A stretch of 51,153 bases of DNA from a virus: positions 1-51,153 of the IMG/VR virus record IMGVR_UViG_3300021963_007891; one strand, given 5' to 3'. This document shows positions 1,115 through 34,055 of the stretch, piece after piece; position 1 is the first letter of the stretch; each line of letters opens with the position of its first letter. Below the pieces are notes generated by a model. That model saw only the letters and a list, made by a program, of their open reading frames with translations, was not told the origin of the DNA and ran no database searches. The translations under genes and the position numbers were made by a program.

Positions 1115-2056
1115 TTATTGGCGGGGAAACTTAAAGTAAGGTGATTTCGGATCGATAAGAGCTCTATCAAGGAGCTTTTTACTCGAAGCACGAGTCGGAA
1201 CAATATCCCACCCACCACGACGAGCATAGAAGCAAGATACTACAAGCTCCTTAGGCTGAAGAATATCCCAAAGTCGTTTATAAGCAGCTTCACAGATTTC
1301 TTCGTGGAAATGACATTCGTTACGGAAAGACACAATCCATTCGAGTAATGACACCTCTGTAACAGTTTTATCTCCCTTGTAGTAAATAAAAATATCTCCA
1401 GAATCTGGCTGCTTAGTAATTTTGCAGTTAGAACGAAGAAGGGTACTCATAAGGCGCTGACCGTTAGTTTTGTTATTCCAATATTCAGTTACTGTCATAG
1501 CGTCTTCGCTATGATCGATCTTTAATAGATCAGCTGACTCGTTGAATACAGTAAAGGACATCTTTTTTGCTTCAGCGATCTCTTCAAGTACTGTATAATT
1601 ACTATACATATTATACAACGGTTCAGCGTGAGCCGGAGCCTGAAGTTGCTGGGTATAAAGCTCAACTTTAACATCAGTTTCAAGTAAAGCAGAAAGATCC
1701 TTTTCAGTAGTAGTCTTAAGCTTCTTGAGTACATCTTTAGCGGTCTTACCCATTGGCTCCATATTAAAAGAGTTCCAATAAAGTTTCATTGATTTAGACT
1801 CAACGATATATGGATTAGTAGCAGAGTAAACTACTTTAGCTACACATGATACTGGAAGGCCAGAATCTGTAACAGCACTACACTCATAACCGTTCCAGAT
1901 ATCATAACCTACAAAAGGAAGTGACTCGTTTTGTAAACCAAGATATGTACGGTTGCGTTGGCGTTCTTCACGCACAAGAATTTCAGGAGTATAAGTAGTT
2001 GGCGAGTCTACTCTCTGTCCCAGTACTTTATCGATATTGTTTGTATTATAGCTCAT
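1115..2056 (-). CDS. queF: NADPH-dependent 7-cyano-7-deazaguanine reductase, long form
   Basis: QueF reduces the nitrile of preQ0 to the aminomethyl group of preQ1. The 313-aa length fits the two-domain (E. coli-type) QueF. The signature ESKSMKLYWNSFN is at residues 86-98, the nucleophilic Cys211 sits in LLRSNCKITKQPDSG with Asp218 behind it, and the HFHEE pair His251/Glu252 and the YARRGGWDI segment match the C-terminal tunnelling-fold domain. All expected catalytic residues appear present, so the enzyme should be active. It overlaps the P-loop kinase by 11 bases and belongs to a block ending in a DpdA-like DNA transglycosylase. The role here is therefore probably supplying preQ1 for DNA modification rather than tRNA queuosine; the latter remains possible. 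Confidence 0.93.
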   Translation of the reverse strand: MSYNTNNIDKVLGQRVDSPTTYTPEILVREERQRNRTYLGLQNESLPFVGYDIWNGYECSAVTDSGLPVSCVAKVVYSATNPYIVESKSMKLYWNSFNMEPMGKTAKDVLKKLKTTTEKDLSALLETDVKVELYTQQLQAPAHAEPLYNMYSNYTVLEEIAEAKKMSFTVFNESADLLKIDHSEDAMTVTEYWNNKTNGQRLMSTLLRSNCKITKQPDSGDIFIYYKGDKTVTEVSLLEWIVSFRNECHFHEEICEAAYKRLWDILQPKELVVSCFYARRGGWDIVPTRASSKKLLDRALIDPKSPYFKFPRQ

Positions 2057-2618
2057 TGTTAAAATCAGTTTGTATTTCTTTAATTACCCGCGCAGCACGT
2101 TCTTCTACTGAACCGGTAAGCATTATAATTCTTTCACTAATACTAAAGTGACGAGTATAGAACTCAAATTGCTTAACTACACCATCAAAAAACTCTTTAT
2201 CTACACTACGCTGACCGTCTTCTATTAACGGCAACTCAGGAGCAATATAAAATATTTTATTATAATGAGGTAAGCACATTTCGTACACCTTCTCAATTGC
2301 CTCCATTATACTCTTATCTACCTGACCCTTATCGTAAAAATAATGACTATATGCAATACCATCTAATGCCCCTCTATCCATAATCCAACGACCCGGAGTT
2401 AATGCAAACTCTAAATGACGAGCCATAATAAGATACTGAGATGCAGAATCCCCAGCTTCATTAATAGGTAATAGTTTACTTAAATTTCTAGTAAGATTTA
2501 TATTAAAAGAGAATCTTAAATCATGCGTAAGCGTAGGTACCTCTTTTAGTTTATTAACTAAAGTGGTCTTCCCTTGAGAATGCGCACCGCAAATTGCTAC
2601 TTTATAGTTTTTATCCAT
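2046..2618 (-). CDS. P-loop nucleotide kinase-like ATPase (AAA_28/NadR-like)
   Basis: A 190-aa P-loop protein with Walker A GAHSQGKTT at residues 10-18 and a kinase-like WIMDRGALDG segment near residue 78, where an Asp-Arg pair recalls deoxynucleoside and NadR-type kinases. The substrate cannot be told from sequence. It overlaps queF by 11 bases and the formyltransferase by 8, so the three genes are translationally coupled. A second member of the same family lies at 28112-28801, directly after queE. Both copies therefore sit beside 7-deazaguanine genes, which hints at, but does not prove, a role in handling modified nucleotides. A general phage deoxynucleotide kinase is the plain alternative. 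Confidence 0.75.
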   Translation of the reverse strand: MDKNYKVAICGAHSQGKTTLVNKLKEVPTLTHDLRFSFNINLTRNLSKLLPINEAGDSASQYLIMARHLEFALTPGRWIMDRGALDGIAYSHYFYDKGQVDKSIMEAIEKVYEMCLPHYNKIFYIAPELPLIEDGQRSVDKEFFDGVVKQFEFYTRHFSISERIIMLTGSVEERAARVIKEIQTDFNNEL

Positions 2619-3195
2619 GGTAAATTGTTCCTATTTTAATTTTTTTCTTCATAAAGGCTACCCAATTGTTGATTGAGACCTTATGTAATTGCTCTATATA
2701 ATTCTCTAATTCTATAAATTGTTCTTTAATATTACTACACTTAAAGTATGCAGTAGACTCTATTTGACCTTCATCAACTGCGGATATAACTTTATGTATA
2801 ACATGGCCATGATAAAGATATGTATTATTATCCCATGACTTCTTTTGAGGGTCTTTACCTTTTAACTCAGGATACTTGGTAATGAGTCCTGGATGGCCGT
2901 TGTATGTATTATAACGAAAGCATACTTCGGGCGGAAGTATTCTTAAATATCCATGCAAAGTAACTAACGCGCCGCTACAGAGAGCAGTATTATATTCTAA
3001 TGGAGTTGGTATCCGCGGCAGGAAAACAAAACGTTCAAACGCTTCTTCCAGTAATTTAGGATTAATAAGCTCGAGCTTCTCTACAGGTTTATTAGTAATA
3101 ATTGCATCCGGGAAGCGGCCAATCTGCTTAGAGATTTCATAGATCTCAGAGCCAGATTGAGAGAACAAAGCATGCCATAAAGTATCTTTTTTCAT
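2611..3195 (-). CDS. PurN-like formyltransferase, candidate preQ1-DNA formyltransferase (DpdN-like)
   Basis: Belongs to the glycinamide-ribotide/methionyl-tRNA formyltransferase fold, which moves a formyl group from 10-formyltetrahydrofolate to an amine. The catalytic signature is visible: LHGYLRILP at residues 80-88, Asn99-Gly-His101-Pro102 (YNGHPGL), and Asp141 in AVDEGQIE. At 194 aa it is close to PurN length. It sits between queF, whose product carries a free aminomethyl group, and the DpdA-like gene. From memory, formylated preQ1 (fdPreQ1) is a known phage DNA base and a formyltransferase, DpdN, has been proposed for it; this gene is a good match by position. A purine-synthesis or sugar N-formyltransferase role is less likely in this setting. 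Substrate is inference; the fold is well supported. Confidence 0.8.
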   Translation of the reverse strand: MKKDTLWHALFSQSGSEIYEISKQIGRFPDAIITNKPVEKLELINPKLLEEAFERFVFLPRIPTPLEYNTALCSGALVTLHGYLRILPPEVCFRYNTYNGHPGLITKYPELKGKDPQKKSWDNNTYLYHGHVIHKVISAVDEGQIESTAYFKCSNIKEQFIELENYIEQLHKVSINNWVAFMKKKIKIGTIYHG

Positions 3196-3422
3196 ACGTT
3201 TAAACGATACCCTATTATATTATTATTAAACAAAATAACCATAGCAAAATCAGTTATTTTGTAAGCTATTAGGTGTTTTTTAACGTCTTCAAGCTCGGTT
3301 ACTGGTAATACGGTGTTTTTTGCACAATCTACAAAGTAATATCCTTCTACTGTGGTATCCCCTTCTAGTAGACGAGGGTAATTTAATAATAAATTATTAG
3401 TGATAGCCTCTATAGCGGTCAT
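3192..3422 (-). CDS. Small hypothetical protein between formyltransferase and DpdA
   Basis: A 76-aa protein overlapping both neighbours by four bases (ATGA-type junctions), so it is almost certainly translated as part of the DNA-modification block. It has the pattern of a compact alpha/beta domain, with a helix at the start (IEAITNNLLLNY) and alternating strands (GYYFVDCA, FAMVILFNNN). No motif identifies it. It could be an accessory or structural subunit of the modification enzymes, but this rests on position alone. Confidence 0.7.
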   Translation of the reverse strand: MTAIEAITNNLLLNYPRLLEGDTTVEGYYFVDCAKNTVLPVTELEDVKKHLIAYKITDFAMVILFNNNIIGYRLNV

Positions 3423-4225
3423 GAGACATAGCTCTTAAACTTCTTAAGGTTATATGCAATAACCTGCTCTTGCTCGGCATCTGGTACTGAGTCTAGCAAA
3501 TCGACTAATTTAGTAGACTCTTTAGTCCAGGTACCAATCTTATCGCTATACTTTATTTTCTTAATACCGTGCACAATAGGGGAAGACGTATCTAAAGTGT
3601 CAATCCAGTTGAACTCAGATCCTTGATAAAAACTAAATTCTCTAGGGTGTGCACACCCAAGTAAATGGTGAGGCTTATTTTTATTAATAATACCATCATT
3701 CATTAGACGAGTAAGAGTCATTACTCGGCCCATCATAAACGATACCCACTTATTAGGATGAGGAAATACTTCTTGGTAATAAGAATAGTCAAATGAAATA
3801 GCAATTTTATCTACGTCGGCAGCTTGATCCATAAACGTATAACACTTGACCAGTTCCCCATATTTTTTACCCTGCACTACCCCGACAACTTTAATAGGTG
3901 AAGGTACTTTAAAATCCTGATTACAGTACCAGCTCTTAGCAGCGTCAATCGTGCCGTTACAATCTTCAAGTACATCTGGAATAATATACTCTGTAGGTTT
4001 AAGTTTGTTAATCCAGTATGCATAACGATCCGAATCAAAAGCAGTACCTAGCTCAAAGATAGAGTTATCAAGTAATACGGACCGGCCATGATTCAAGCTT
4101 CTTTCAAAAAACTTATAATACTCTGGATGAGTCTCAAAGAGATGCACAAGAGCGTAATCATAATCATTATATGTACGAGAGATCTCGAGCATACTAAGCG
4201 GGGATTCGTGGGATACTTTAATCAT
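3419..4225 (-). CDS. dpdA: DpdA-like 7-deazaguanine DNA transglycosylase (TGT superfamily)
   Basis: Member of the tRNA-guanine transglycosylase superfamily in its phage DNA-acting form, which exchanges guanine in DNA for a 7-deazaguanine. Over 268 aa the TGT signposts appear in order: LLDNSIFELG (residues 51-60), IIPDVLED (81-88), VVGVVQGK (113-120, equivalent to GIVQGG), HLLGCAHPREF (187-197, equivalent to the YLMGVG turn) and WIDTLDTSSP (207-216), where Asp209 or Asp212 would be the nucleophile. It lacks the C-terminal zinc region of tRNA TGTs and is shorter (bacterial Tgt is about 375 aa), as expected for DpdA-type enzymes. Coupled by four-base overlaps to the small gene before it and to DNA polymerase after it. 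Confidence in the superfamily is high; DNA rather than tRNA as substrate follows from size and context. Confidence 0.85.
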   Translation of the reverse strand: MIKVSHESPLSMLEISRTYNDYDYALVHLFETHPEYYKFFERSLNHGRSVLLDNSIFELGTAFDSDRYAYWINKLKPTEYIIPDVLEDCNGTIDAAKSWYCNQDFKVPSPIKVVGVVQGKKYGELVKCYTFMDQAADVDKIAISFDYSYYQEVFPHPNKWVSFMMGRVMTLTRLMNDGIINKNKPHHLLGCAHPREFSFYQGSEFNWIDTLDTSSPIVHGIKKIKYSDKIGTWTKESTKLVDLLDSVPDAEQEQVIAYNLKKFKSYVS

Positions 4226-6786
4226 GTGAATAAATCGAATAGATCGGTTTGTGATTGGTTATTAACTTGCGGTAGTTGCCAGTTAAGAGCTTTATATACT
4301 GCGATTACAGGTGGTTTAATAATTGTATCGAACATTTCCTCATAATCTACTTCAAAATCGTTAAGTTCAGAAGGAAAGCTCACTGGAAAGCAAAGAGTGT
4401 CGATATTATAGCGGTTAGGTGCAATATATATTTTTTTAACCTTACCGCCTGAAGTAATTTTTTCGTATTTGGTCTCGAGATTACGATGCTTTAATAGTTG
4501 GTTATACCAGATAGCACCTTTCACGTGGTTCGGAGTACCTTTAGCGATCTTAAACCCTTGTGCACGTACCTGATGTTTTTCAATATCATTTAAACCGCCT
4601 CGTATCGCTATATCATCTATAGAGAGCTTTTTAAAGGTATCATACACGTCTCTATATATATTATTAGCTTTAACCGGGTCTTGCACTAATAAGCTACTTT
4701 CGATTACCTTTTTAATTAACTCTTTAGCTTTCTTTGGAGTAGTAGAACGAGCTATCTCCACCCCCACATACTTAAATTTACGGACATCTGCTCCCTCATC
4801 GTTAATCACGTGAATAATATAGCGCTTTTTTTCAAGATATACAGCAACATCACAAATAGACTCGCGTTTAAAATAGTACCGCGGATCAATTGAGTTTAAC
4901 TTGTCTTTAGCCCATTCTTTAATCTTAGTATTGAGGTATACTCCGATTTCGTCGTCAATAAGTCTGAGACCTTCTTTATTGACTTTACCATCAGTGAAGA
5001 TGTCTAGCTTTTTCTTATCAAGTAAAGGCTGAATAGTAATATGAGTACTATCAGTATCATTATAAATTGTGAGCGATTTACCTTCATATGCATACTTCTC
5101 TTTCGCATACTGGTCGATAATCTCACTTGCTTGTTTAACAACTGCTTGGCCAGTAAGAGTAATGCTACCGGCATGGTCACTATCGCAAATAGGACTAAAC
5201 TTATTAGCAAATACCCCATAGATAGAATTGAGTAGAATCTTGATGACGTGTTGGATAGAGTCGGCTCGCTCCATAATATCTTTGCACGTTTCATATTCTT
5301 CAGTTCCTACAGTTAATTTACTTAATTTTTTCTTTAACTCTACATACTTATCTTTGTTTACTACCCGTTCACTATATAAACCATCAATTAAGGCAGGCAC
5401 CACTCCCTTAGTCTTTTGAGTATAAAGCACGTTAGCTTTGGATATCGCAAGCTTTTCAGCCTGCACAAACTGTACGAACTTTTCATTAGAGAGCTTAAAA
5501 TCCTTGTTAGTAGTTAAACGTATAGTAACACTCTCATCATCTTTAGCAACTATCTTACCGACCTTTGTCTCGGGGGATATATTCAGGGTAATAATAGTAT
5601 TAGGGTATAGTGAGTTAGCGTCATAGCTTACTACAGACTTTTGAAGGCCTCTTTCGGGATCTCTAACGAATCCCCCTTCAATAGCTTCTCGGGTAGGTCC
5701 TTCCACGAACGTGGGTATGACCATACCATGTTTATACGCTTGTAAAGCTACGCACCCGGTTACAATGGATACTTTACCGAGAGCTGCTTCAAACCCAGTC
5801 AATCCTTTATAAGCTAACATTCTGATAATCTTAAAGAATTGGAGCTTCTTCTCCATACGTACTAACAGATCAACGTCTTGAATATTATAATTAACAAAGT
5901 TATTCCAGTCAGATTTAGATAGATCAGCTAAATTAGTAGCATTAATTGCTAATTTACCTTCTCCAAGCTCGTGCTGTGCAACAAAATTAAGAGCGTATGA
6001 TTCAAGCAGCCCTCGCGCAAAACCTCTATACACTTCCATATAGTCCATTGCTGATATACCGTGAATATACCAACGGTCTAGCTCTTGACCTTTAACAAAT
6101 ATACCTTTACGGCACCATAGACTATTCACTGGGGATAAACGTTTAGATGCTTCTTCTCCGAGAAGATTATTAATGCGGTTGATCAGGTAAGGAAAGTCGA
6201 AGAAGTCTGTATTCCACCCTGAAAGAATATCTGGGTAGTAATCATTCTCCCAGAACTCTAAAAACTTTTCAAGTAAGTCATGCTCGCTAGTACATTCAGT
6301 ATATACTACGTTTTTACGAGTAGGAGTATAAGGTTTCGCGCCGAACGTATAAAAAGTCTCTGATAATGTATCATATACCGTAATTAAGTTGATCGGGTGC
6401 TTAGCGTCCTTAGCTTCAGGGAACTCATCAGGAGAATATACCTCGATATCAAGGAAGCAGACTTTAAGCGGACTATTAGAGAATTCAGGCTTATCATAGA
6501 CGTCCTTATATTGCTCGATAAGAAACTGCTGCTCTACCTGAATATTGTGATAGAGTCTTTTGATCGCTCCGTCTTGAGCAGCTTTATTACGCTCAAAGTT
6601 ATTTCGAAATACTTTCTTCTTTAACTTAGTATTAAAGATAGATAGAGCATCAGGAGTATCAGAGTTAGTCTCGATGTAAAAATACGGCTGGTAAGGTATC
6701 TTTTTAATTATACGCTTACCAGTTTCATCCCAAGTAAACAGCTGGCAAGTACTATCCCTTGGGCTATAATAAATATTACGGTACAC
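4222..6786 (-). CDS. 43: Family B replicative DNA polymerase (T4 gp43-like)
   Basis: Replicative polymerase with proofreading. The 854 residues show, in order, exonuclease motif I DIEVYSPDEF (near residue 112), Exo II SGWNTDFFDFPYLI (near 189), palm motif A YDANSLYPN (near 388), fingers motif KILLNSIYGVFANKF (near 510) and motif C YNDTDSTH (near 570). Motif C carries Asn where many B polymerases have Gly (YGDTDS); the two catalytic aspartates are kept. The C-terminal tail SQTDLFDLF looks like a sliding-clamp-binding peptide. It overlaps dpdA by four bases, tying DNA modification and replication into one transcript. Confidence 0.97.
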   Translation of the reverse strand: MYRNIYYSPRDSTCQLFTWDETGKRIIKKIPYQPYFYIETNSDTPDALSIFNTKLKKKVFRNNFERNKAAQDGAIKRLYHNIQVEQQFLIEQYKDVYDKPEFSNSPLKVCFLDIEVYSPDEFPEAKDAKHPINLITVYDTLSETFYTFGAKPYTPTRKNVVYTECTSEHDLLEKFLEFWENDYYPDILSGWNTDFFDFPYLINRINNLLGEEASKRLSPVNSLWCRKGIFVKGQELDRWYIHGISAMDYMEVYRGFARGLLESYALNFVAQHELGEGKLAINATNLADLSKSDWNNFVNYNIQDVDLLVRMEKKLQFFKIIRMLAYKGLTGFEAALGKVSIVTGCVALQAYKHGMVIPTFVEGPTREAIEGGFVRDPERGLQKSVVSYDANSLYPNTIITLNISPETKVGKIVAKDDESVTIRLTTNKDFKLSNEKFVQFVQAEKLAISKANVLYTQKTKGVVPALIDGLYSERVVNKDKYVELKKKLSKLTVGTEEYETCKDIMERADSIQHVIKILLNSIYGVFANKFSPICDSDHAGSITLTGQAVVKQASEIIDQYAKEKYAYEGKSLTIYNDTDSTHITIQPLLDKKKLDIFTDGKVNKEGLRLIDDEIGVYLNTKIKEWAKDKLNSIDPRYYFKRESICDVAVYLEKKRYIIHVINDEGADVRKFKYVGVEIARSTTPKKAKELIKKVIESSLLVQDPVKANNIYRDVYDTFKKLSIDDIAIRGGLNDIEKHQVRAQGFKIAKGTPNHVKGAIWYNQLLKHRNLETKYEKITSGGKVKKIYIAPNRYNIDTLCFPVSFPSELNDFEVDYEEMFDTIIKPPVIAVYKALNWQLPQVNNQSQTDLFDLFT

Positions 6787-6818: not shown

Positions 6819-8000
6819 TCAAGAGAAATATAGGTCAGTAAACTGATTAATATTGTCTTCTAACCACCATTTATTAGCTACCGCCCGAGCATTATCCGAT
6901 TCGGTAAGGTACCGCTTTCTATCTGAAAGAGTCTTTTTAATGATCTCAACCATTGAATCTGGAGTGCTAAACCGGAGAGGTGCCATCTTATAAGGCTCTA
7001 AATCTTGGCACACGCAAGGTAATCCCAATGCGCCTGCTTCTAGGTACTTAATCGGGGCTTTAGCCAAGTTAAACTTGTTATCTTGTAAAGGTGCAATAGC
7101 GATATTAAGATTGAGGTTATTATATGTGGTTGGATAGTCCCAGATGCGCGACCATGGCACATATTCAATATCTCCGCTTCTTACTAAGTGAGCTAACTCA
7201 GAAGGACAACCACCCATAATTACCCATTTAAAGTTTTTAACTGTTTTGATAATTACGTTACAGATATCACCAAAGTCATCTTTAGCACCAGCTACATTAC
7301 CAACATTAAAATGAGTCGGACTACCAATATAACCTACCCGTGGCCGACGCTTATTAATTTCGTAGTTTTCTGATATTTTAGATTTTTTGTAAAACCGGTC
7401 AATCCAAAACTTAGGCATATAATTAGGAAGCACTATACCTTTAACGCCAGTTCTATCCTCATAGTACTTTGACATATATGCGGTTGGGGTAGTGATACCA
7501 TCACACAATCTCATGATCTCTATAGCGGTATTTGATATAACTGGATCTAGAAATGCTTCACGGGCTTTGTTATATACAGGAATATCTTCTGGGAAGATTA
7601 CATCATCAATATCATAATAGATCTTAAATTTATTGTTCTTATCGGATAGTGCTTTGAGAGCTTTAACGAATTGAAGTTGAGATGGAGTTACCTGTCTTTG
7701 AATTCTCACACTCTTAATCCCTTGATAAAAGTTTTCCTGGAGAATCATAAAATTATTATTATTAATGATACCCAGTTGTTGCCCATTAATTACTGCTTCA
7801 GGCCAATGCATTCTCCAAAAACCACATCCTTGATGATCAGCTGCAAAACTAACTGCTCTTTGCATACCATTAGGCATACTACCTTGTTGGGGTACAGTAT
7901 TAATAATAGTGCTATTAGCTGCAAGCGGACTACCCACTACTGGGGCTCCAAAAGGTAATTGAGGAGCGCCAAATACGCCGCCGTGGTTAGGATATGTCAT
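6819..8000 (-). CDS. GT-B glycosyltransferase (GT4-like)
   Basis: A 393-aa GT-B enzyme. The first ~40 residues are Gly/Pro/Ala-rich and probably disordered. The N-terminal Rossmann part contains KIYYDIDDVIFPED (near residue 125), the hinge region GIVLPNYMP and PRVGYIGSPTHFN (near 222), and the donor-binding part PIKYLEAGALGLPCVCQD (near 318), which is the EX7E-like region of GT4 enzymes. It overlaps gp46 by 14 bases. Donor and acceptor are not evident; hydroxymethylated or otherwise modified DNA, virion proteins or host glycans are all possible targets. Its place beside the glycan island favours a role with those genes. Confidence 0.85.
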   Translation of the reverse strand: MTYPNHGGVFGAPQLPFGAPVVGSPLAANSTIINTVPQQGSMPNGMQRAVSFAADHQGCGFWRMHWPEAVINGQQLGIINNNNFMILQENFYQGIKSVRIQRQVTPSQLQFVKALKALSDKNNKFKIYYDIDDVIFPEDIPVYNKAREAFLDPVISNTAIEIMRLCDGITTPTAYMSKYYEDRTGVKGIVLPNYMPKFWIDRFYKKSKISENYEINKRRPRVGYIGSPTHFNVGNVAGAKDDFGDICNVIIKTVKNFKWVIMGGCPSELAHLVRSGDIEYVPWSRIWDYPTTYNNLNLNIAIAPLQDNKFNLAKAPIKYLEAGALGLPCVCQDLEPYKMAPLRFSTPDSMVEIIKKTLSDRKRYLTESDNARAVANKWWLEDNINQFTDLYFS

Positions 8001-9810
8001 AATTTGTGGTTCTTGTGGTTATACCGTTTTTCTTTTCAAGGTAAATGATTTCGCCGTTAGTACAGTATTTTTTACTTTCTTTGCGGTGAGATATAATGTA
8101 TATTGATTCACTATAGTTATCTACTCGTTCTCTAAGAATATCAAGTACTAACTCGATACCTTTCTCGTCAAGAGACGAATCTAATAGCTCGTCAAACATA
8201 CTAAGATTCAACCAAACATCAGCTTGCGCCCGGCGCACATCCTGAAAAGTAAATAGCATAGCAAGGTCAATTGCTTTACGCTCAGCGCCCGAAAAGTTGA
8301 AGTAACTACATTCTTTACCTCTCTCATTAGTAATAGTTTCATCAAAGAACTCATTAAACGTAACAATACTATTACTCTCTAGTCTGCGAAGGTATTGTGA
8401 CAGCCGCAGGTTAAGTACTTGTAGAATTTTCTTAACAATAAATGACTTTACCCCCTCTTCGGATGTAATAAACTTAGCATTTTCAATAATATCCATTCTC
8501 TCTTGAAGATCTATAATACCAGTCTTAATATCTTTCTGACGATTTAATATACCATCAATAGAGTCTTGAAAATTACTTGAGTCTTTATTGAGAGTATCTA
8601 TATCGATAACTAATTGATTTTGCCAGTCATTAAGCTGTTTAACGCGAGTATTAATGTTCTCTATTTCTTTTTTGCGTAAAGCGAAATTGTTTAACTTACG
8701 TTCCATTTCAGGAATAGACTTCTCCAATTCATCTAATCCTTTCTGCGCTAATTCAAGACGAGGCTCTTCCCGACGAGCAACTTCAGTGTAGTCCTGTACC
8801 TCTTTTTCACAGTCTGCTTTATCTTTCTCGTATTGAGAGTTAGCTGCTTCAGCTAAGTCCTTTCCGCAATGTGGGCAATTACTATCGACTTTTTTAAGCT
8901 TTTTAATACGGTCAGTATTGAACTTAATATGTGCTTCCGCCTCTGTAATAAGCTTATTAATAGCAGCTACTTTTTTCTCATATGCTTTCTCGGCAGTTTT
9001 TAAAACGTTTAAATCAGCTTCAACTTTAGCTTGGGCAGTAATATCGACAGAATCAATCTTACCGAGTTTTTCATTAAGTACCGCTAATTCTTGTACATTA
9101 TTATCTTGACGTACTTTAAGTGTGTCGATTCTTTTGGTCTTATTAGCTTCGTAGCTTTCTTTCTGTTTTACTGCATCTAATAGGGAACGGTTGACCTCTT
9201 CATTCTTAGTACACTCTATATCTATATTTCTCTTAACATCATTAAAATCAGAGCGAGCTAAAAGTAACATATTACCAAACACTTCAAGACCTAGAATACC
9301 CTCAATAAACTTACGCTTTTCTACTTTCTTTTGAGCCATGAACGGTATCGTGTTATTAATAGTCATAATAACGCTATTCTGAAAGACTTCTGAAGAGGTC
9401 TTAATCGTATCTATAATAAGCTCGGTAGTCTGTGGAACCCCTGATCGTGTAATATCTTCCCCATTTACGAAAAAGAAACACTTAGTAGGATTAAGTGTTC
9501 TAACTATCTTGCACTTATTTACCTGCTCATCTTGCTGGTAATCAAGCTCAAGCTCAACCTCGCAAAGACTTTCAGGCGCTTGGTCATTAACAATGTTCTC
9601 TTTTTTAAGGTCCCGAATAGTAGAGCCATATAAAGCAAAGTGCACGGCATCAGCAATGGTAGACTTACCAACGCCGTTAGCTCTATCAGCTTTATCATAA
9701 TTCTTACCGGTTATAATATTTAAACCCGGCTTAAAGTTTATCTCCACCGACTTCCTGCCAATAGACAAGAAGTTAGATATCTTTATATGCTTAAAATGTA
9801 CATACCGCAT
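7987..9810 (-). CDS. 46: Recombination endonuclease subunit gp46 (SbcC/Rad50-like)
   Basis: ABC-type SMC-like ATPase that pairs with gp47 to resect double-strand ends. At 607 aa it is close to T4 gp46 (560 aa). Seen: Walker A region ending in NGVGKST (near residue 48), two long coiled-coil arms, a zinc-hook CPHCGK near residue 312, a signature motif FSGAERKAIDLAM near 500 and Walker B WLNLSMFDELLDS with D-loop. The partner gp47 is at 20361-21413, separated by the glycan island instead of lying next to it. Start ATG at 9810 is followed directly by the typical RYVHFKHIKISNF beginning. Confidence 0.95.
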   Translation of the reverse strand: MRYVHFKHIKISNFLSIGRKSVEINFKPGLNIITGKNYDKADRANGVGKSTIADAVHFALYGSTIRDLKKENIVNDQAPESLCEVELELDYQQDEQVNKCKIVRTLNPTKCFFFVNGEDITRSGVPQTTELIIDTIKTSSEVFQNSVIMTINNTIPFMAQKKVEKRKFIEGILGLEVFGNMLLLARSDFNDVKRNIDIECTKNEEVNRSLLDAVKQKESYEANKTKRIDTLKVRQDNNVQELAVLNEKLGKIDSVDITAQAKVEADLNVLKTAEKAYEKKVAAINKLITEAEAHIKFNTDRIKKLKKVDSNCPHCGKDLAEAANSQYEKDKADCEKEVQDYTEVARREEPRLELAQKGLDELEKSIPEMERKLNNFALRKKEIENINTRVKQLNDWQNQLVIDIDTLNKDSSNFQDSIDGILNRQKDIKTGIIDLQERMDIIENAKFITSEEGVKSFIVKKILQVLNLRLSQYLRRLESNSIVTFNEFFDETITNERGKECSYFNFSGAERKAIDLAMLFTFQDVRRAQADVWLNLSMFDELLDSSLDEKGIELVLDILRERVDNYSESIYIISHRKESKKYCTNGEIIYLEKKNGITTRTTNYDIS

Positions 9811-9846
9811 TCGGTTATTATAACTGCTTTATAGAGAAAGCCAAGG

Positions 9847-10533
9847 CTAAGCTTTGACGTAAATGTCATCAATTGCAATACGTTCTTTAAGGTAATATCC
9901 CCGCTCTTTCATAAACAAGCGATGGTCTTGTGAGTCATAGTTATTTTCCATAGTTATGACTTTTACGGTAAACTTATTAAAATTTAATCCAGCAAGCACT
10001 TTGAGTTCCGAGCCTTCAGTGTCTAGACTTATAAAATCAATATTAGTAAAATTGTACTCTTCAAGTACTGAATTTAAAGTTCTTGTTTTTACATTAATTA
10101 TTTCTGCATTACACTTAAACTCTTTAGCTTCTTCTTTAATTCTATCTGTATAGTTAGGATGGTATTCTTTAGTTAGTCCAGAAAGCGTTTGAGAATATCC
10201 TGTTATTTTAGTAAATTCAGCAATACCCTCGACGTCTGATAGTGCTATCGGTAAACATATTGCCGCTCTATTAAGTTTTAATACAGAAAAAATATCTGGG
10301 TTTGGCTCAAAACATATGCCTTTCCAGCCAAGCACCTTTTCAAAGAAAAAAGTGTTATTTAAAGAAATTCCGTCATGTGCTCCTATATCTAAAAACGTGC
10401 CGGTTTTCTGGCCAGCAAAAAAATTATTATAGACATACTCATCTTGCTTGTACTGTCCTTTAAAACCTTTATCAGGGTTTTTTCTACTGTGCTTTTCTTT
10501 TCTCTGTATATTAAGTATTTCTTCTAAATCCAT
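9847..10533 (-). CDS. FkbM-family SAM-dependent methyltransferase
   Basis: A 228-aa methyltransferase of the FkbM type. SAM motif I is FLDIGAHDG (residues 48-56), followed by KGICFEPNPD and the typical ISLDTEGSELKVLAGL segment near residue 168. FkbM enzymes commonly O-methylate sugars or polyketides, so here a glycan hydroxyl is the likely target. It is the gp46-proximal end of the glycan island and starts with the same LEEILNIQRKEK-type helix as the glycosyltransferase at 11301 (NLQEVLEAQRDEK). That shared N-terminal peptide suggests a common docking or assembly signal within the island. Confidence 0.88.
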   Translation of the reverse strand: MDLEEILNIQRKEKHSRKNPDKGFKGQYKQDEYVYNNFFAGQKTGTFLDIGAHDGISLNNTFFFEKVLGWKGICFEPNPDIFSVLKLNRAAICLPIALSDVEGIAEFTKITGYSQTLSGLTKEYHPNYTDRIKEEAKEFKCNAEIINVKTRTLNSVLEEYNFTNIDFISLDTEGSELKVLAGLNFNKFTVKVITMENNYDSQDHRLFMKERGYYLKERIAIDDIYVKA

Positions 10534-10545
10534 TTAATATATTTA

Positions 10546-11301
10546 TTAATATAACCAGCTCCAAGTCTTAATATACTCTTTAAGCTTCTCGGCTGACATG
10601 TTATCAATTTTTTGAAATTCCTCGACGTTTTTCTGATAATAAGGATTTGCCTCGCTGCTGTCCACACTTCTTGCGTGATCAATATGATAAAGAGGCCCCT
10701 TAACTCGGCCAATTCTATATCCAAGTTTTGCGAAACGTTTAAACCGCTCCCAGTCCTCACAGCCCCAAGATAAAAAATGCTCGTTTTCCATTCCACCCTC
10801 AATGAATACTTTTTTATTCCAAAACATCGCTCCGCCCATAGAACTTTTACCAAAATTTTGGTATTGATCAGGGTTTAAACCGTCTACGTTATAATCCCGG
10901 CCTTTTGTCGTCACTACTGCTTGTGTTATGTTAACAAAATAACCATCATACGGATATATACAGTCTACTTCTAATCCCTTCAACATTAAGTATGCTTTTT
11001 GTACCTGCTTAAGAGGAAATACTACGTCACAGTCGTAGTTCGCTATAAATGGTGTTTGAGCAAGCCGAGCCATATTATTAAGATAACGTGTGCGATGAAA
11101 AAGCCCTTTATTCTCTTCAAATATATGTTGTACTTGATTTCTGTTGTTATATTTTGGCTCAGGGCCATTTTCATATACAATAATGTTGGTATCAAAATTA
11201 CGTAAAAGATACTCAACAGTGTAGTTAATATTGTAAAGTCTGTCCGGCGTATCAATCCTGACCGGGATAGTGAATGTAATGTCTTTAAGATTGTATTTCA
11301 T
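10546..11301 (-). CDS. Glycosyltransferase, GT-A fold, galactosyltransferase-like
   Basis: A 251-aa GT-A enzyme. FTIPVRIDTPDRLYNINYTVEYLL opens the nucleotide-binding fold in a GT2-like way; the DxD-like metal site is NYDCDVVFP (near residue 88), and the C-terminal half carries HFLSWGCEDWERFKR near residue 195. The WGxEDxE pattern is characteristic of beta-1,4-galactosyltransferase-like (GT7/GT27-type) acceptor-binding regions. It shares one base with the next gene downstream of its start (ATG/TAA junction at 11301). Sugar specificity is unknown. Confidence 0.8.
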   Translation of the reverse strand: MKYNLKDITFTIPVRIDTPDRLYNINYTVEYLLRNFDTNIIVYENGPEPKYNNRNQVQHIFEENKGLFHRTRYLNNMARLAQTPFIANYDCDVVFPLKQVQKAYLMLKGLEVDCIYPYDGYFVNITQAVVTTKGRDYNVDGLNPDQYQNFGKSSMGGAMFWNKKVFIEGGMENEHFLSWGCEDWERFKRFAKLGYRIGRVKGPLYHIDHARSVDSSEANPYYQKNVEEFQKIDNMSAEKLKEYIKTWSWLY

Positions 11302-12158
11302 TAGTTATTATTAAATATGTTAAATTTTTTGCAGTCAATTATCCTTTCAGCAGGACTTATACGAGTAGATATAAATAACAAATTTTTGTTAGTTTCAACT
11401 GTTAGCATAAGCTTCTCATCATACAAGTGATCTATATGTAATAAATTAATGCTTCTAGTAGTATCAGCATTTCCAGTAGATTCTATACATCTAAGATAAA
11501 AGCTAGAGTCTTCACTACCGTGGCCTTCATAACGCGGATCAAAACCACCGACCGTTGCATATGCTTTTTTATTACATATAAAAATTCCACCGTGAAATTG
11601 CCAATCTGCTCTGTGTTTTGACCAGGTTTTATGGTACCATATTTTTTCGTTAAGATTATTAATATCTACATTTTTATATACATAGTATATATCGTTACCC
11701 GGAAAGACTACTTTATTTTTATTAATACTGTCTATTGATACGTCTAACAAATTACTAGGTATAATCATATCACAATCTAATCCACAAATAATGCTATTCG
11801 ATGCTGATAAAAAACCTAAGTTAAAACATCTAGACTTATTAAACAATCTCTTAGAGTAAACAAATATATACCGTGTCCCGGGTATAGTCTGTTTTATTAT
11901 ACGAGTTGGACCTTCTTCTATAATTAATATTTCACACTGTGGGTAGCGAAGCACAAGGTTATTAACACACTTGTTAAGCTGTAACACCCGATCACTACCA
12001 CAAAACGGTATAATGAATGTTACTGCTTCTTTAATCTTACTTTCTAAATTAAATTCTTTAAGTACTGGTTCAGGCAAAAATGCAGGGTGTTTAAGCTCGG
12101 GATGTTTTCTAAACATCTTTTCGTCTCTTTGAGCCTCTAGTACTTCCTGTAAATTCAT
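11301..12158 (-). CDS. Glycosyltransferase, GT-A fold (GT2/GT7-like)
   Basis: A 285-aa GT-A transferase. VTFIIPFCGSDRVLQLNK (near residue 46) starts the fold, GLDCDMIIP (near residue 127) gives the metal-binding DxD, and GGFDPRYEGHGSEDSSFY (near residue 205) is the acceptor-side motif with a GxEDxxF pattern. The first 15 residues, NLQEVLEAQRDEK, resemble the start of the FkbM methyltransferase two genes away. Likely a successive glycosyltransferase of the same chain as its neighbour at 10546. Confidence 0.82.
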   Translation of the reverse strand: MNLQEVLEAQRDEKMFRKHPELKHPAFLPEPVLKEFNLESKIKEAVTFIIPFCGSDRVLQLNKCVNNLVLRYPQCEILIIEEGPTRIIKQTIPGTRYIFVYSKRLFNKSRCFNLGFLSASNSIICGLDCDMIIPSNLLDVSIDSINKNKVVFPGNDIYYVYKNVDINNLNEKIWYHKTWSKHRADWQFHGGIFICNKKAYATVGGFDPRYEGHGSEDSSFYLRCIESTGNADTTRSINLLHIDHLYDEKLMLTVETNKNLLFISTRISPAERIIDCKKFNIFNNN

Positions 12159-13322
12159 TTAACCAAGCTGGTTTAAAAAGCTTACGAGCTTGTCAATATG
12201 TTTTTCTGTTACTTTATTATGTAGTCCAATATACATACCGCGATTGTGCAAATACTCACTGGACGAGTAATAGGATGGAACTGAGTATCCTTTAAGGCAA
12301 GTTTGACGTAAAAGATTGCCTGAAATTATTGGACGCGCTTCTATTTTATTTGTAATGCAGAACTCTTTAGTAAGCTCTAAAGAGTATTTATCTTTAAATA
12401 TTAGCGGTATACAAAACGGCACATCATCACAGTCACTACCCGCTTTCAGTAGATTCATCTTAGGTATTGTTACTAAATTGCTTTTAAGCCGTAAAAGTAA
12501 TAACGAATAGAGCTTTTGTCTAGTATTAATATATTCCTTAACTCTTTTTAAATCTAAAAGACCTATAAACGCGTTAATGTTAGTATTTCTAAAGTTGTTA
12601 CCGAGTTGGTAAAAATCAAAACGAGAGTCTACATCCGGGTTACTGTATTTTGCTTTATTGCTGGGTAGACTACGAACCATACCGTGGTTACGCGCCATTA
12701 AGCAGTATTCATACTCTTCTTGACTGTTGGTAAAAATAAACCCGCCCTCAACGCTTTGCAATTGATGGCCGAAGTAAGTGCTTGTGGTAGATGTAAAGAA
12801 AGACGAAATGTTCTTACCTTTATATGTTCCAAGCGTATTCTCGCAGTTGTCGAACATAACTCTTACTTTATAGATAGACTCAATACGCTTTATTCTATCA
12901 ATATCTGGCACAAACCCTAAAAGGCTCGTAATAAAAACACATGCTACCTCGTCCGAGCTAGTCTCAAGAAATTCTTCAAGTTTGTCGAGATCCATAGACA
13001 TATCATGCATATTAACATCAACAAAATAAGGCTGAAACCCCTCTCTAATAAAAGGAGATACTGAGGTTATCCAGGTAGTAGACGGAAACACTACAGTCTT
13101 GTTCTTGGTTCTATCAGTTAAATACATTGCTAGTATAGTGTTGGCGGTAGAGCCACTAGAAACAAATATAGCGTGTTTGCACCCTACGTAATCAGCCATA
13201 GCTTTTTCGTATTGCTGAACCTGTTCGGTCATTGTCCAGAAGTTCTTTTTATTAAGAAAAAACTTACAAATTTTTAGTCTGTCTAAAAAAGTAAAGTTAG
13301 ACTCGTTAAGATTCCAGTTCAT
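12159..13322 (-). CDS. DegT/DnrJ/EryC1-fold enzyme with active-site His: ColD-like sugar 3-dehydratase
   Basis: PLP-fold sugar enzyme. FVSSGSTANTILAMYL (PLP phosphate binding), FPSTTWITSVSPF, and FDNCENTLGTYKG (PLP-binding Asp) are all present. The residue that forms the aldimine in aminotransferases is normally Lys, but here the loop reads STYFGHQLQSVEGG with His in that place. That replacement is the mark of GDP-4-keto-6-deoxymannose 3-dehydratase (ColD) and of the CDP-sugar E1 dehydrases, which use PMP to remove the C3 hydroxyl. I chose the ATG at 13322 because an upstream start would run deep into the epimerase gene; the remaining overlap is 17 bases. Next to an Fcl/ColC-like epimerase-reductase, so a GDP-3,6-dideoxyhexose such as colitose is the likely product. 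Confidence 0.8.
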   Translation of the reverse strand: MNWNLNESNFTFLDRLKICKFFLNKKNFWTMTEQVQQYEKAMADYVGCKHAIFVSSGSTANTILAMYLTDRTKNKTVVFPSTTWITSVSPFIREGFQPYFVDVNMHDMSMDLDKLEEFLETSSDEVACVFITSLLGFVPDIDRIKRIESIYKVRVMFDNCENTLGTYKGKNISSFFTSTTSTYFGHQLQSVEGGFIFTNSQEEYEYCLMARNHGMVRSLPSNKAKYSNPDVDSRFDFYQLGNNFRNTNINAFIGLLDLKRVKEYINTRQKLYSLLLLRLKSNLVTIPKMNLLKAGSDCDDVPFCIPLIFKDKYSLELTKEFCITNKIEARPIISGNLLRQTCLKGYSVPSYYSSSEYLHNRGMYIGLHNKVTEKHIDKLVSFLNQLG

Positions 13323-14875: not shown

Positions 14876-15192
14876 AGGTTAATTTTGTCGCTCGGTACAG
14901 ATGGCCATTTTATAACAATTAAATCGGTATCTTCAAGAAAAGTAACTTCAGCAACCTCTTTAGGGTGATATACGAACATATCGCCTGCAGATAGTTTTTT
15001 GTCAGAAGCTACTAAAGATCCCTTTACAATATATGTTACTTCTGTTGCTATAAAGTGAGTGTGCAGTGGGCCGGTATAGCCGGCTTTATGTTGATGGTGA
15101 GCCACCTCAAAAAAACAGTTTTTAAATACTGCAGGGGTGAAGTCTCCGATAAACCACCCGTTTTTAAAATCTTTAATATTATAGATGTCCAT
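14872..15192 (-). CDS. Small cupin-domain protein
   Basis: A single-domain cupin of about 106 aa from the ATG at 15192. That start reduces overlap with the preceding fusion gene to 14 bases. Metal-binding-type His residues appear in EVAHHQHKAG and GPLHTHFIATEVTYIVKG, followed by the second cupin motif LSAGDMFVYHP. Cupins in sugar operons are often epimerases, isomerases or sensors of an acidic sugar, but nothing here fixes the function. It may act on the NDP-sugar or sugar-phosphate made by the adjacent genes. Confidence 0.75.
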   Translation of the reverse strand: MDIYNIKDFKNGWFIGDFTPAVFKNCFFEVAHHQHKAGYTGPLHTHFIATEVTYIVKGSLVASDKKLSAGDMFVYHPKEVAEVTFLEDTDLIVIKWPSVPSDKINL

Positions 15193-26739: not shown

Positions 26740-27234
26740 ATGAGCAATAGATATGTATCTACTAAAATTATACCGCTGGGGTCATGTGCTTTTAGACAAC
26801 CCTTCGCTGAGAGTCATTGTCGTTTTATACATGGCTACCGTCTTCAAGCTAAGTTCTGGTTTACTTGCGATCATTTAGATAAGAATAACTGGGTAGTAGA
26901 CTTTGGTGCTCTTAAAGAGCTTAAGGTTATTCTTGAAGAAGCATTTGATCATAAAACAGCTGTTTGGGCTCAAGACCCCGATTTTGATATGTTTAAAATG
27001 CTTGAAGAGCGTAAAATGGTGGAGTTAACAATTTTTAATGACGGAGTTGGTATTGAGCGATTTGCTAAGTTCTGTTATGATCAAGCTAATGACTGGGTAG
27101 AGGATCGTACGAATGGACGCTGCTGGTGCTCTAAAGTAGAGGTGTGGGAACATGAAGGTAATTCAGCTATATATGAAGATAACTTCCGAGCGACCGTTGG
27201 CCCTGGTTATAGTGGAGATGGGTGGAAAAGTTAA
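26740..27234 (+). CDS. queD: 6-carboxytetrahydropterin synthase, divergent phage form
   Basis: Second step of preQ0 synthesis (dihydroneopterin triphosphate to carboxytetrahydropterin). The 164-aa chain keeps the QueD/PTPS order: CRFIHGYRLQAKF (residues 27-39), VVDFGALKELKVILEEAFDHKTAV and the C-terminal VEVWEHEGNSAIY with the pterin-binding Glu. Two of the usual three zinc His are not where expected: the first-strand HRL is replaced by AFRQP, and HGH is shortened to HGY. A nearby His (SHC) may substitute. There is also an insertion near residues 80-110. The assignment is good from overall pattern and because queE follows 23 bases later. Confidence 0.8.
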   Translation: MSNRYVSTKIIPLGSCAFRQPFAESHCRFIHGYRLQAKFWFTCDHLDKNNWVVDFGALKELKVILEEAFDHKTAVWAQDPDFDMFKMLEERKMVELTIFNDGVGIERFAKFCYDQANDWVEDRTNGRCWCSKVEVWEHEGNSAIYEDNFRATVGPGYSGDGWKS

Positions 27235-27256: not shown

Positions 27257-28060
27257 ATGAACATTGACCCTAATAAGACTCTTTTTTTAAGCGATGACTT
27301 TGTATTTTACACTTTAGAAGGAGAGGGCAGATACGTCGGCTATCCCTCAGTCTTTATGAGGCTGTCAATGTGTAACTTAACTTGTATTGGCTTTAAGAGT
27401 GAGGCTGCTCCCTTCGGCTGTGATAGTTACGTAAGTTGGTCAAAGAAAAATAAGATGACTTTCGAAGAGATTGCAGTATTGTTTGAAAAACATGGCTATC
27501 ACGATAGATTGCGAGAGGGAGCTTTACTTAAGATTACTGGTGGAGAGCCTTTTATTCAACAGAAAAACCTTATTGAGTTCGTAAAATTTATTCACGAGCG
27601 CTGGGGCTTTGCAAAGTGGAATGCACCTATGACTGCTGAGGAGCTTTCCAAGCCGGAGCTCTTTATTGACTTTGAAACGAACGGCACCATTATGCCTGAT
27701 GAAGAGTGGTATGATCTGCAATGCTCTGTTACATATACTACTTCTCCGAAACTATCTAGTAATGGTGATCCTGCTGATAAGAGATATAAGCCTGAGGTAC
27801 TCAAATACCTTGTAGATAATGATGCATGCTTTAAATTTGTTGCAAAGCAAGAGTCTGACCTGGAAGAGGTATTTGAGAAGTATGTAAATGCACCTGATAT
27901 TAAAGTTAACCCACGTAATATATGGATTATGCCGATGTGTGGCTCTAGAGAAGAGTTAGTTAAAGTAGGGCCTGTAGTTGCAGATCTTTGCAAGAAGTAT
28001 AACTTTAAATTCTCTAATAGACTGCACTTACAGCTATGGAATTTAGCTCTTAAGGTATAA
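27257..28060 (+). CDS. queE: 7-carboxy-7-deazaguanine synthase (radical SAM)
   Basis: Radical SAM enzyme that rearranges carboxytetrahydropterin to CDG. At 267 aa it is somewhat longer than E. coli QueE (223). FYTLEGEGRYVGYPSVFMRLS is the typical N-terminus. The cluster-binding cysteines are spaced CxxxC-x11-C (MCNLTC...FGCDS), an expanded version of CxxxCxxC, as in other enlarged QueE forms. LKITGGEPFIQ and FIDFETNGT are the GGE and ribose-binding motifs, and TYTTSPKLS is a family hallmark. A TATAAATA at 27250-27257 overlaps the ATG itself and is probably chance. Confidence 0.93.
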   Translation: MNIDPNKTLFLSDDFVFYTLEGEGRYVGYPSVFMRLSMCNLTCIGFKSEAAPFGCDSYVSWSKKNKMTFEEIAVLFEKHGYHDRLREGALLKITGGEPFIQQKNLIEFVKFIHERWGFAKWNAPMTAEELSKPELFIDFETNGTIMPDEEWYDLQCSVTYTTSPKLSSNGDPADKRYKPEVLKYLVDNDACFKFVAKQESDLEEVFEKYVNAPDIKVNPRNIWIMPMCGSREELVKVGPVVADLCKKYNFKFSNRLHLQLWNLALKV

Positions 28061-28111: not shown

Positions 28112-28801
28112 ATGGAAACGCTCAATAAAATCGGCATAATTGGAACTCAGTGCATCGGAAAAACCACTCTTATACAAGATATGAAAGAGAAATGGCCAGT
28201 GTTTTGTACCCCCGATAAAACCTATCGGGATCTAATTAAAGAGAAAAAACTACCGACCAATAAGAAAGGCACTAAAGAGTCTCAAGAAGCTATTCTTAAC
28301 TTCTTAGTAGACGAAGCAATGGCTAATTATGGTAAGAAGAAAATGGTATTTGATCGTACCCCTATTGACAATTTAGTATATTCACTTTGGCTCTATGAGA
28401 AGGGATTATCTGATATTGATGAAGCGTTTATCGATAAAAGTGTAACATTACTTCGTAACTCAATTAAGTTTTACTCTATTATCTTTTACTTACCGTTTTG
28501 TGAAGAGAACGACGTGATGCTAACAAGCGGCCCTAATAGAGATGTAGACCCAATGTACAGATCAGAGATCGGTCATTTATTTGAGGGGATTTATAAAGCA
28601 TGGCAAAAAACTGGTTCCCGGTTCTTTGATACTGATGATTGCCCTGCTTTTATTCCATTATTTGGTAGCCGGCAAGAGCGAATTGCAATGATGAGTATGT
28701 ATATTAATGATAAGGGAGAGTTTTTCGGGGAACAAGACTCTTTAGTGACAGACTTCTTACAGCAAGAATTTTTAAGAAAAAACTTGACTGAAGGTAAGTA
28801 A
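28112..28801 (+). CDS. P-loop nucleotide kinase-like ATPase (second AAA_28/NadR-like copy)
   Basis: A 229-aa P-loop protein with Walker A GTQCIGKTTL (residues 10-19), VFDRTPIDNLVYSLWLYEKG near residue 88 and a long C-terminal helix. Same family as the gene at 2046: both share a DR-x-x-x-D-x-x-Y kinase-like segment and a following YxxG turn. It lies 51 bases after queE, as the other copy lies beside queF. A nucleotide or nucleoside kinase is the best general call; whether it handles deazaguanine compounds is unknown. Confidence 0.75.
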   Translation: METLNKIGIIGTQCIGKTTLIQDMKEKWPVFCTPDKTYRDLIKEKKLPTNKKGTKESQEAILNFLVDEAMANYGKKKMVFDRTPIDNLVYSLWLYEKGLSDIDEAFIDKSVTLLRNSIKFYSIIFYLPFCEENDVMLTSGPNRDVDPMYRSEIGHLFEGIYKAWQKTGSRFFDTDDCPAFIPLFGSRQERIAMMSMYINDKGEFFGEQDSLVTDFLQQEFLRKNLTEGK

Positions 28802-32691: not shown

Positions 32692-33396
32692 ATGTCAAAA
32701 GCACTCGTTATACTATCAGGCGGAATGGACAGCTCTATACTACTACACTATGTTGCTAAAGAACTTAAGTATGATGAGGTTTTCGCAATAACCTTTAACT
32801 ACGGGCAGCGGATTATAAGAGAGGTAGAGTGTGCTCGTTTTCAAGCTCAAGCAGCTAATGTAAGAGAGCATAAAATAATAAATATGGATTTCTTTAGAGA
32901 CATATCTACAATGTCTGCACTAACCAATGCTTCCTTATCTATACCTAAAGCCCGAGATGATATCGGCAATGCACAACCTTTAAGCTATGTACCTTTTAGA
33001 AACCTATTACTACTTACGACAGCTGCTGGCTGGGCTGAAAGCCTGGGCGCTCAAGATCTATATTACGGCGCTGTACAAACTGACGACTTCTCTGGCTATT
33101 GGGATTGTACGTCTCTTTTTCTGAACAAAGTAAACGAGACGTTTAACCTTAATCGTAAGAACTCTATTAAGGTAAACGCACCGTTTATGTCTTATTCTAA
33201 AGATCTAGTAGTTAAGAAGGGAATTGATCTGAAGATTGACTTCAAGCAGACCCATACATGTTATGAAGGTACTGACCCAGCTTGCGGAGAGTGTGTATCA
33301 TGCTCGGCTCGTATTAAAGCCTTTATCGATAATAAAACTATTGATCCTATCGGATACTCTCGAGTTATACCTTGGGGTCAGTATAATTGTGTGTAA
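32692..33396 (+). CDS. queC: 7-cyano-7-deazaguanine synthase
   Basis: Converts CDG to preQ0 with ATP and ammonia. The PP-loop SGGMDSS is at residues 9-15, AITFNYGQR near 32, YVPFRNLLLL near 100, and the zinc site reads CYEGTDPACGECVSCSARI near residues 190-208 with four Cys. 234 aa is normal. It carries its own promoter-like element and is followed 20 bases later by a class II glutamine amidotransferase. Some archaea and phages have these two activities fused as Gat-QueC, so the pair may be a split version. Confidence 0.95.
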   Translation: MSKALVILSGGMDSSILLHYVAKELKYDEVFAITFNYGQRIIREVECARFQAQAANVREHKIINMDFFRDISTMSALTNASLSIPKARDDIGNAQPLSYVPFRNLLLLTTAAGWAESLGAQDLYYGAVQTDDFSGYWDCTSLFLNKVNETFNLNRKNSIKVNAPFMSYSKDLVVKKGIDLKIDFKQTHTCYEGTDPACGECVSCSARIKAFIDNKTIDPIGYSRVIPWGQYNCV

Positions 33397-33416: not shown

Positions 33417-34055
33417 ATGTGTGGTATTAGCGGAAGTAACAAAAGAGAACAAGCGTTTAAGCTCTATCAAGACAATCTCAATAGAGGTTTTTATAGTTCC
33501 GGACTATTAACTCTATCTAACAAGGATAAAGTATGGAGTGTATTTAAGACAGAGGGAAGTTGGCCTAAAATCTGCACCAACCTTAATGTTAGTTATTATC
33601 TTTACCATTCTCGTGGCCCTACTACTGAAACTAAAAGTTTTGACCCTACTAATAACCACCCGTTTTTTTACGGCGACTGGGTAGTAGCTCATAACGGCAT
33701 TATCAGTAATTATAAAGAACTTGGAGCAAAGTATTTTCCAGAGGATGATTTTACAGAAAGGACCGATAGTTGTATTATACCTAGAATGCTTTCAATTAAG
33801 CCCACTATTAATGAATCCCTAGAGGAACTTAAAGGCACATTTGCTTTATGGATCCATAACATTCGAAGTAAGAAGACTTTTATAACGAGAAGCGCTAGTA
33901 CACTTTTCGGGGACTTTACTACCGGGGATTTCTCTTCTACTCATTTCGAGGGTAGCTCTACACTTAAAGAAGGTGTTGTATATGATATAGAAGGATATGA
34001 AACTATTAAGCCTATTTCTAACTATAAGACAGTTTCTCCGTATTTTATATTGTAA
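33417..34055 (+). CDS. Class II glutamine amidotransferase, possible partner of QueC
   Basis: N-terminal-nucleophile glutaminase of 212 aa. I start it at the ATG at 33417, so that Cys2 (MCGISGS) becomes the N-terminal catalytic Cys; an upstream in-frame ATG would bury it. HSRGPTTET is the glutamine-binding HxRxxT-like motif, then NNHPFFYGDWVVAHNGIISNYKEL with the NG oxyanion hole, and LKGTFALWI. No synthase domain is fused to it. Position directly after queC suggests it feeds ammonia to QueC or amidates a deazaguanine, as fused Gat-QueC does in archaeosine or phage base synthesis. An asparagine- or glucosamine-related role is a less likely alternative. Confidence 0.82.
   Translation: MCGISGSNKREQAFKLYQDNLNRGFYSSGLLTLSNKDKVWSVFKTEGSWPKICTNLNVSYYLYHSRGPTTETKSFDPTNNHPFFYGDWVVAHNGIISNYKELGAKYFPEDDFTERTDSCIIPRMLSIKPTINESLEELKGTFALWIHNIRSKKTFITRSASTLFGDFTTGDFSSTHFEGSSTLKEGVVYDIEGYETIKPISNYKTVSPYFIL

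Follow-up and report, generated by a model that had tools for sequence, protein, structure and literature searches.

A phage gene block that probably serves to make formylated 7-deazaguanine DNA

The IMG/VR virus record IMGVR_UViG_3300021963_007891 is a 51-kb virus fragment, analysed here over its whole length of 51,153 nucleotides and called the window below. Near its start, on the minus strand, lies a compact block that probably makes and inserts a modified DNA base. It runs from a family B DNA polymerase (PolB) through a short DpdA-like guanine transglycosylase, a small open reading frame (ORF76), a formyltransferase (FT) and an AAA_28 kinase (KIN1) to QueF (Table 1). The window also has T4-like genes, which encode UvsX, an SbcC-like subunit, a tail sheath stabilizer, a portal and a major head protein. 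All neighbours in the block overlap, by 4 bp at PolB/DpdA, DpdA/ORF76 and ORF76/FT, 8 bp at FT/KIN1 and 11 bp at KIN1/QueF, and translational coupling and one shared transcript are therefore likely.

An earlier note on this DNA, made from the letters alone, had described QueF, a PurN-like formyltransferase and a DpdA-like transglycosylase at 1115-4225, in one transcript with DNA polymerase. The three enzymes are present there on the minus strand, their predicted families all held up, and the catalytic residues named for them are real. The gene overlaps do extend through to PolB; the transcript itself is deduced from them, and simple scans of the window for sigma-70 promoters and terminators gave results at chance level. 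KIN1 and ORF76 had been passed over, as had QueD, QueE and QueC elsewhere in the window. ORF76 matches no family in the searches made and is conserved among close (PolB) relatives only. A PADLOC run returned nothing, and a nucleotide search of phages with the window found no match.

Table 1. Genes of the block and of the putative preQ0 pathway, with window positions
Feature	Positions	Strand	Evidence
QueF, long (bimodular) NADPH-dependent preQ0 reductase	1115..2056	-	Pfam QueF_N 7.1e-27, QueF 7.8e-18; PDB 3bp1 9e-73 by profile
KIN1, AAA_28 P-loop nucleoside/nucleotide-kinase-like	2046..2618	-	Pfam AAA_28 6.9e-12; AlphaFold2 pLDDT 88
FT, PurN-fold N-formyltransferase	2611..3195	-	Pfam Formyl_trans_N 2.4e-6; family profile vs PurN/GART 7e-14
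ORF76, small 76-aa protein between DpdA and FT	3192..3422	-	no family match
Short DpdA-like guanine transglycosylase, 268 aa	3419..4225	-	51.5% to immuto protein annotated DpdA; AlphaFold2 pLDDT 93.4
PolB, family B DNA polymerase	4222..6786	-	Pfam DNA_pol_B 5e-22; phrog_262 3e-185
QueD	26740..27234	+	PTPS 5e-17; phrog_2389 2e-36
QueE	27257..28060	+	phrog_2076 QueE-like 1.2e-44
KIN2, second AAA_28 kinase directly after QueE	28112..28801	+	AAA_28 3.4e-10; paralogue of KIN1, 27% identity
QueC	32692..33396	+	Pfam QueC 6.5e-60
Class II glutamine amidotransferase (GAT), stand-alone, next to QueC	33417..34055	+	GATase_7 1e-8

QueF enzymes reduce preQ0 to preQ1. The family profile of the window's QueF, built from 27 relatives, finds Vibrio cholerae QueF as its counterpart in the PDB. 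C211 (the cysteine of the earlier note), D218, H251, E252 and E86 are invariant in those relatives. The protein has a bimodular fold, a Cys/Asp/His/Glu active site and the E-S-K-x-x-K motif, here ESKSMKLY. Since the protein falls below the NCBIfam equivalog cut-off (216 versus 293), it is judged a divergent member of the family. With both modules and the nitrile-reductase residues in place, preQ1 would be its expected product, which agrees with the proposal that QueF is the source of the free amine. Genes of the preQ0 pathway and a DpdA thus occur together in the window, in the form of QueD, QueE, QueC and the short DpdA.

A GAT also comes after QueC in the relatives L150-L160, and annotation or Pfam places one there in pf16 and KVP40 as well; it could possibly donate ammonia to QueC. 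This arrangement allows a different product, archaeosine (dG+) rather than preQ1, if GAT and QueC formed a split Gat-QueC or if the QueF homologue were a QueF-L amidotransferase, and QueF and QueF-L are indeed hard to tell apart by sequence (Hutinet 2019, PMC6884629). However, the bimodular build, the closeness to V. cholerae QueF, the ESKSMKLY motif and the full set of catalytic residues all favour QueF, and phages Dp-1 and HVTV-1, which have QueF-L-like proteins, had dPreQ1 (PMC6884629). FT, and the GNAT acetyltransferase that replaces it in some relatives, would also need an amine to be explained. Archaeosine is accordingly given only a slim chance.

FT as a single sequence is barely above the Pfam cut-off (27.8 versus 26.1 bits), and it is the profile of 39 members that ranks PurN/GART best in the PDB, with the sugar formyltransferases PseJ and VioF lower. 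The triad N99/H101/D141 is invariant in the 39 relatives, and the protein has the Formyl_trans_N fold with the N-x-H...D signature; it is judged to be a true PurN-fold N-formyltransferase, in line with the earlier note. The fold and triad would also suit an ordinary PurN of purine synthesis. Against this, FT scores 28 bits on TIGR00639, the model for glycinamide ribonucleotide transformylase (PurN proper), where the cut-off is 150, and the phosphate loop GSN of PurN has become GSE, with E17 invariant. The altered loop would disfavour glycinamide ribonucleotide as substrate. Together with the strict linkage of FT to DpdA and QueF, this makes a housekeeping PurN highly improbable. The aminomethyl group of preQ1 is the predicted target instead.

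Hardly any FT is found outside phages that have DpdA and QueF as well. Just three relatives were found among 84,980 bacterial and archaeal genomes, and of 50,697 phage records none but those of the Flavobacterium immuto phages contain it. In IMG/VR, at least 395 contigs carry it by one scan and at least 565 by a second. In a first set of relatives, FT is followed by the kinase at 68/68 loci and by QueF at 62/63, and is preceded by DpdA at 65/67. Counted over distinct loci (111 distinct FT ORFs, the denominators being loci with enough flank), these become 82/85, 82/85 and 83/84, and the loci that break the pattern are three contigs binned with bacterial genomes. The isolated Flavobacterium phage immuto is among the 82 of 85 distinct loci that keep the order DpdA-FT-kinase-QueF, and some relatives carry QueE-FolE-DpdA-FT-kinase-QueF-QueC-GAT in a single run. 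Between FT and the kinase, three relatives hold ornithine cyclodeaminase/mu-crystallin or IMPDH/GMP-reductase genes (L019:1164-2093, L027:8530-9450 and L189:1573-2532).

Natural gene loss and replacement tie FT to DpdA and QueF. The contigs L174-L178 carry DpdA-kinase-QueF without FT, and their DNA is predicted to hold dPreQ1. In two others, a GNAT acetyltransferase stands in the FT slot, giving DpdA-GNAT-kinase (L173:6801-7382 and L209:6001-6546, 84% identical; L209 is a 184-kb contig without FT). Such a swap is as expected if the slot serves to decorate the amine of preQ1, and the GNAT phages are predicted to hold N-acetyl-dPreQ1, a candidate new DNA base that can be searched for directly.

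The short DpdA was modelled by AlphaFold2 with 43 relatives as a barrel with a predicted local distance difference test score (pLDDT) of 93.4. In a fold search of the PDB, the best 50 matches listed were all tRNA-guanine transglycosylases (TGTs), with probability 1.00 and template modelling scores of 0.50-0.66. The conserved motifs D53-N54-S55, P83-D84, Q118-G119, L188-L189-G190 and D212-T213-S214 lie at or just after strands, so that a TIM barrel carries the acidic residues D53, D84 and D212 and Q118 at such positions; Q118-G119 and D212-T213-S214 are invariant in the 43 relatives. The alignment with Escherichia coli TGT by hhalign is weak (E 0.005) and colinear over QG, LxG and D212. The lack of a transglycosylase pocket, which the earlier note had named as a refutation, was not what the model gave. 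By sequence, the protein belongs to a short family of 260-270 aa, distinct from the DpdA2-type proteins tested. The long TGT-like proteins used for that comparison, from KVP40 and pf16, are ones we take to be DpdA2; the DpdA2 of nt-1 was not compared. Cellulophaga phage phiST has a protein related to it in structure, CGPG_00065, and a search of viral_contigs for Bacillus-type DpdA found no relatives.

One position in the short DpdA tracks the presence of QueF. Aspartate stands at residue 146 in 57/57 homologues from QueF-positive phages versus 2/17 from QueF-negative ones, the strongest association of the 268 columns; E87 is present in 53/57 versus 2/17, and the two together in 53/57 versus 0/17. 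The tree has two independent contrasts with branch support, and both point the way that such a link would predict. Because there are only these two, the link is taken as a hint that DpdA accepts preQ1, and E87 plus D146, once considered as proof of the substrate, was demoted accordingly. The pocket motif is common to phages with FT, without FT and with GNAT, a hint that preQ1 is what DpdA inserts and that acylation of the amine comes later.

Phosphoribosyltransferase genes occur in several short-DpdA phages (L001:9843-10238 and L203:4764-5186, both near the module, and L272:28218-28646) and could salvage the guanine that DpdA releases. In L203:3413-9865, a short DpdA is accompanied by what may be a second TGT-like protein, which has no Pfam match, by two QueC-like genes and by a DUF5591 (ArcS-like) protein.

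KIN1 has the P-loop GxxxxGK[ST], a DR motif and a kinase fold. The nearest PDB folds to its AlphaFold2 model are NadR ribosylnicotinamide kinase, deoxynucleoside kinases and thymidylate kinases. In 27 records chosen for DpdA, the kinase is present in 23, QueF in five and FT in two, and KIN1 adjoins DpdA in relatives with and without FT/QueF. Campylobacter phages CP220 and CC_R7 have DpdA then the kinase, with neither QueF nor FT, and L151, L153 and L196 have lost FT and QueF while keeping DpdA-ORF76-kinase. Because the kinase stays behind DpdA in phages that have neither FT nor QueF, it is assigned, from gene context, to DpdA and the insertion step, not to formylation. Other P-loop ORFs stand beside DpdA in the Bacillus phages BSTP12/Youna2 and in phiST (AAA_18). 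The KIN1-like kinases of Streptomyces phages are a weak match with no DpdA annotated nearby.

The kinase makes a monomer-level route conceivable, in which the short DpdA would swap the base of a deoxynucleotide, the kinase would phosphorylate it and the adjacent polymerase would use the modified dNTP. This is compatible with formylated 7-deazaguanine DNA and differs in the insertion step. The constancy of the kinase regardless of FT and QueF, the different P-loop neighbours of other DpdAs, the small size of DpdA (just ~260 aa) and the adjacent polymerase point in this direction. So do CP220 and CC_R7, which belong to a group with complete replacement of G; all dG in Firehammervirus DNA has been reported to be replaced by a 7-deazaguanine (PMC10273834). 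On the other hand, TGT and the long DpdA act on nucleic acid. MazG was considered as a partner converting dGTP to dGMP and was dropped, since this dNTPase is present in phiST but does not accompany DpdA generally. It also counts against the route that Crippen 2019, according to its abstract, reportedly detected no phosphate of dADG in infected cells. Insertion of monomers is therefore regarded as possible and rather unlikely. Similarly tentative is the fuller version, in which formyl, or acetyl in the GNAT phages, is added to the deoxynucleotide and the GNAT relatives carry the undescribed base N-acetyl-dPreQ1. If true, the route would account for those phages in which G is replaced completely, and the kinase partner is a concrete lead on how they replace all guanine.

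Taken together, the window belongs to a virus of bacteria, and its block very probably builds the guanine look-alike preQ1, exchanges DNA guanine for it and formylates it. We hold with good confidence that it is a phage operon for formylated 7-deazaguanine DNA, because of the protein families and their residues, the TGT fold, the conserved gene order, the near-absence of FT from bacterial and archaeal genomes, the presence of QueD, QueE and QueC, the GNAT swap, the GSE loop and the link between D146 and QueF. QueD, QueE and QueC would lead to preQ0, with FolE supplied by the host or by a missing part of the genome; QueF would reduce preQ0 to preQ1, and the short DpdA would exchange guanine for it, with KIN1 serving this step. 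FT would then transfer formyl from 10-formyl-tetrahydrofolate onto the aminomethyl nitrogen, so that the phage DNA would hold 7-(formylamino)methyl-7-deazaguanine (fdPreQ1). The proposal of the earlier note, fdPreQ1 or dPreQ1 in the phage DNA, is strongly supported by these genes. We infer the substrate, the product and the order of the steps, as well as protection from restriction: by analogy with the phages of Hutinet 2019 (PMC6884629), the modification most likely guards the DNA against host nucleases.

Several observations weigh against this interpretation. FolE was not found in the 51-kb window. The short DpdA has no Pfam match by sequence, and its profile search of the PDB gave none, a TGT included; hhalign against the TGT-like proteins of KVP40 and pf16, which are 440-459 aa long and encoded next to QueF, reached a probability of 0.9% (E 0.06, 29 columns). 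The number of contrasts behind the D146 link is small. The remaining points concern sugars, and they would suit an FT that stands beside DpdA and QueF by accident and formylates an amino sugar; the sugar would come from the glycan cluster at 6.8-23 kb, which has an epimerase, a DegT aminotransferase and glycosyltransferases. Sugar clusters with DegT are present in both the window and immuto, the non-phage FT relative L213 (from a Microcoleus bin) adjoins a DegT aminotransferase in an amino-sugar-like setting, and PseJ and VioF are among the PDB matches of FT. However, the top matches are to PurN proteins rather than sugar enzymes; all but three of the distinct loci place FT between DpdA and kinase/QueF; DegT or epimerase matches occur in just 2/80 FT loci searched with +/-8 kb flanks; and GNAT takes the place of FT exactly between DpdA and the kinase. 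An amino-sugar substrate is accordingly rated quite improbable, and L213 is a reminder that the FT fold can serve other amines.

The L213 relative itself is clustered with radical SAM, thymidylate-kinase-like, DegT aminotransferase and phosphoribosyltransferase genes (L213:2752-6537), which may be a bacterial route to an N-formyl sugar or nucleoside. The glycan cluster of the window (6819-21434) includes a DegT aminotransferase, an epimerase, an RpiB-like isomerase, an FkbM methyltransferase and GT10 and GT11 fucosyltransferase-like genes.

Like the phage 7-deazaguanine systems of Hutinet et al. 2019 (PMC6884629), the window combines the preQ0 pathway with a transglycosylase. In that study, QueF-positive phages contained dPreQ1, and a kinase is not mentioned in the main text (PMC6884629). 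The window differs from the DpdA2 systems described there in having a DpdA of 260-270 aa, unlike the long forms, plus FT and the kinase. Campylobacter Firehammervirus phages of the CP220 type encode homologues of the short DpdA (45%) and, after it, of the kinase (29%), but no QueF or FT and a different DpdA pocket motif. No paper on a kinase with DpdA was found in the literature searched, nor any description of the short DpdA family or the GNAT variant, and fdPreQ1 appeared there only in citations of the Cui et al. 2023 title; the text of that paper lay outside the search. DpdN, the name of the fdPreQ1 formyltransferase of Cui et al. 2023, likewise turned up in no relevant paper of that literature.

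The closest known system is that of immuto (Flavobacterium phage vB_FspM_immuto_2-6A, NC_055915, gp201-gp216), which has DpdA-small ORF-FT-kinase-QueF as in the window, at 32-53% identity; its host is Flavobacterium sp. LMO8. In immuto, QueD, QueE and FolE are upstream and contiguous, whereas QueD, QueE and QueC of the window lie 20-30 kb away on the other strand. The small ORFs are unrelated, with no similarity between ORF76 and the immuto ORF at the corresponding place. The shared order at this identity supports a module, although the neighbouring polymerase differs, being of family A in immuto and PolB in the window. Cui et al. 2023 (doi 10.1093/nar/gkad657) are said to have reported formylated preQ1 as a phage DNA base, in fdPreQ1/mdPreQ1 phages. 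If the prediction is right, formylated 7-deazaguanine would spread beyond a single group of phage isolates to hundreds of contigs from environmental phages. With the identical gene order in immuto and formylated preQ1 DNA reportedly described, the module of the window is another case of a known type.

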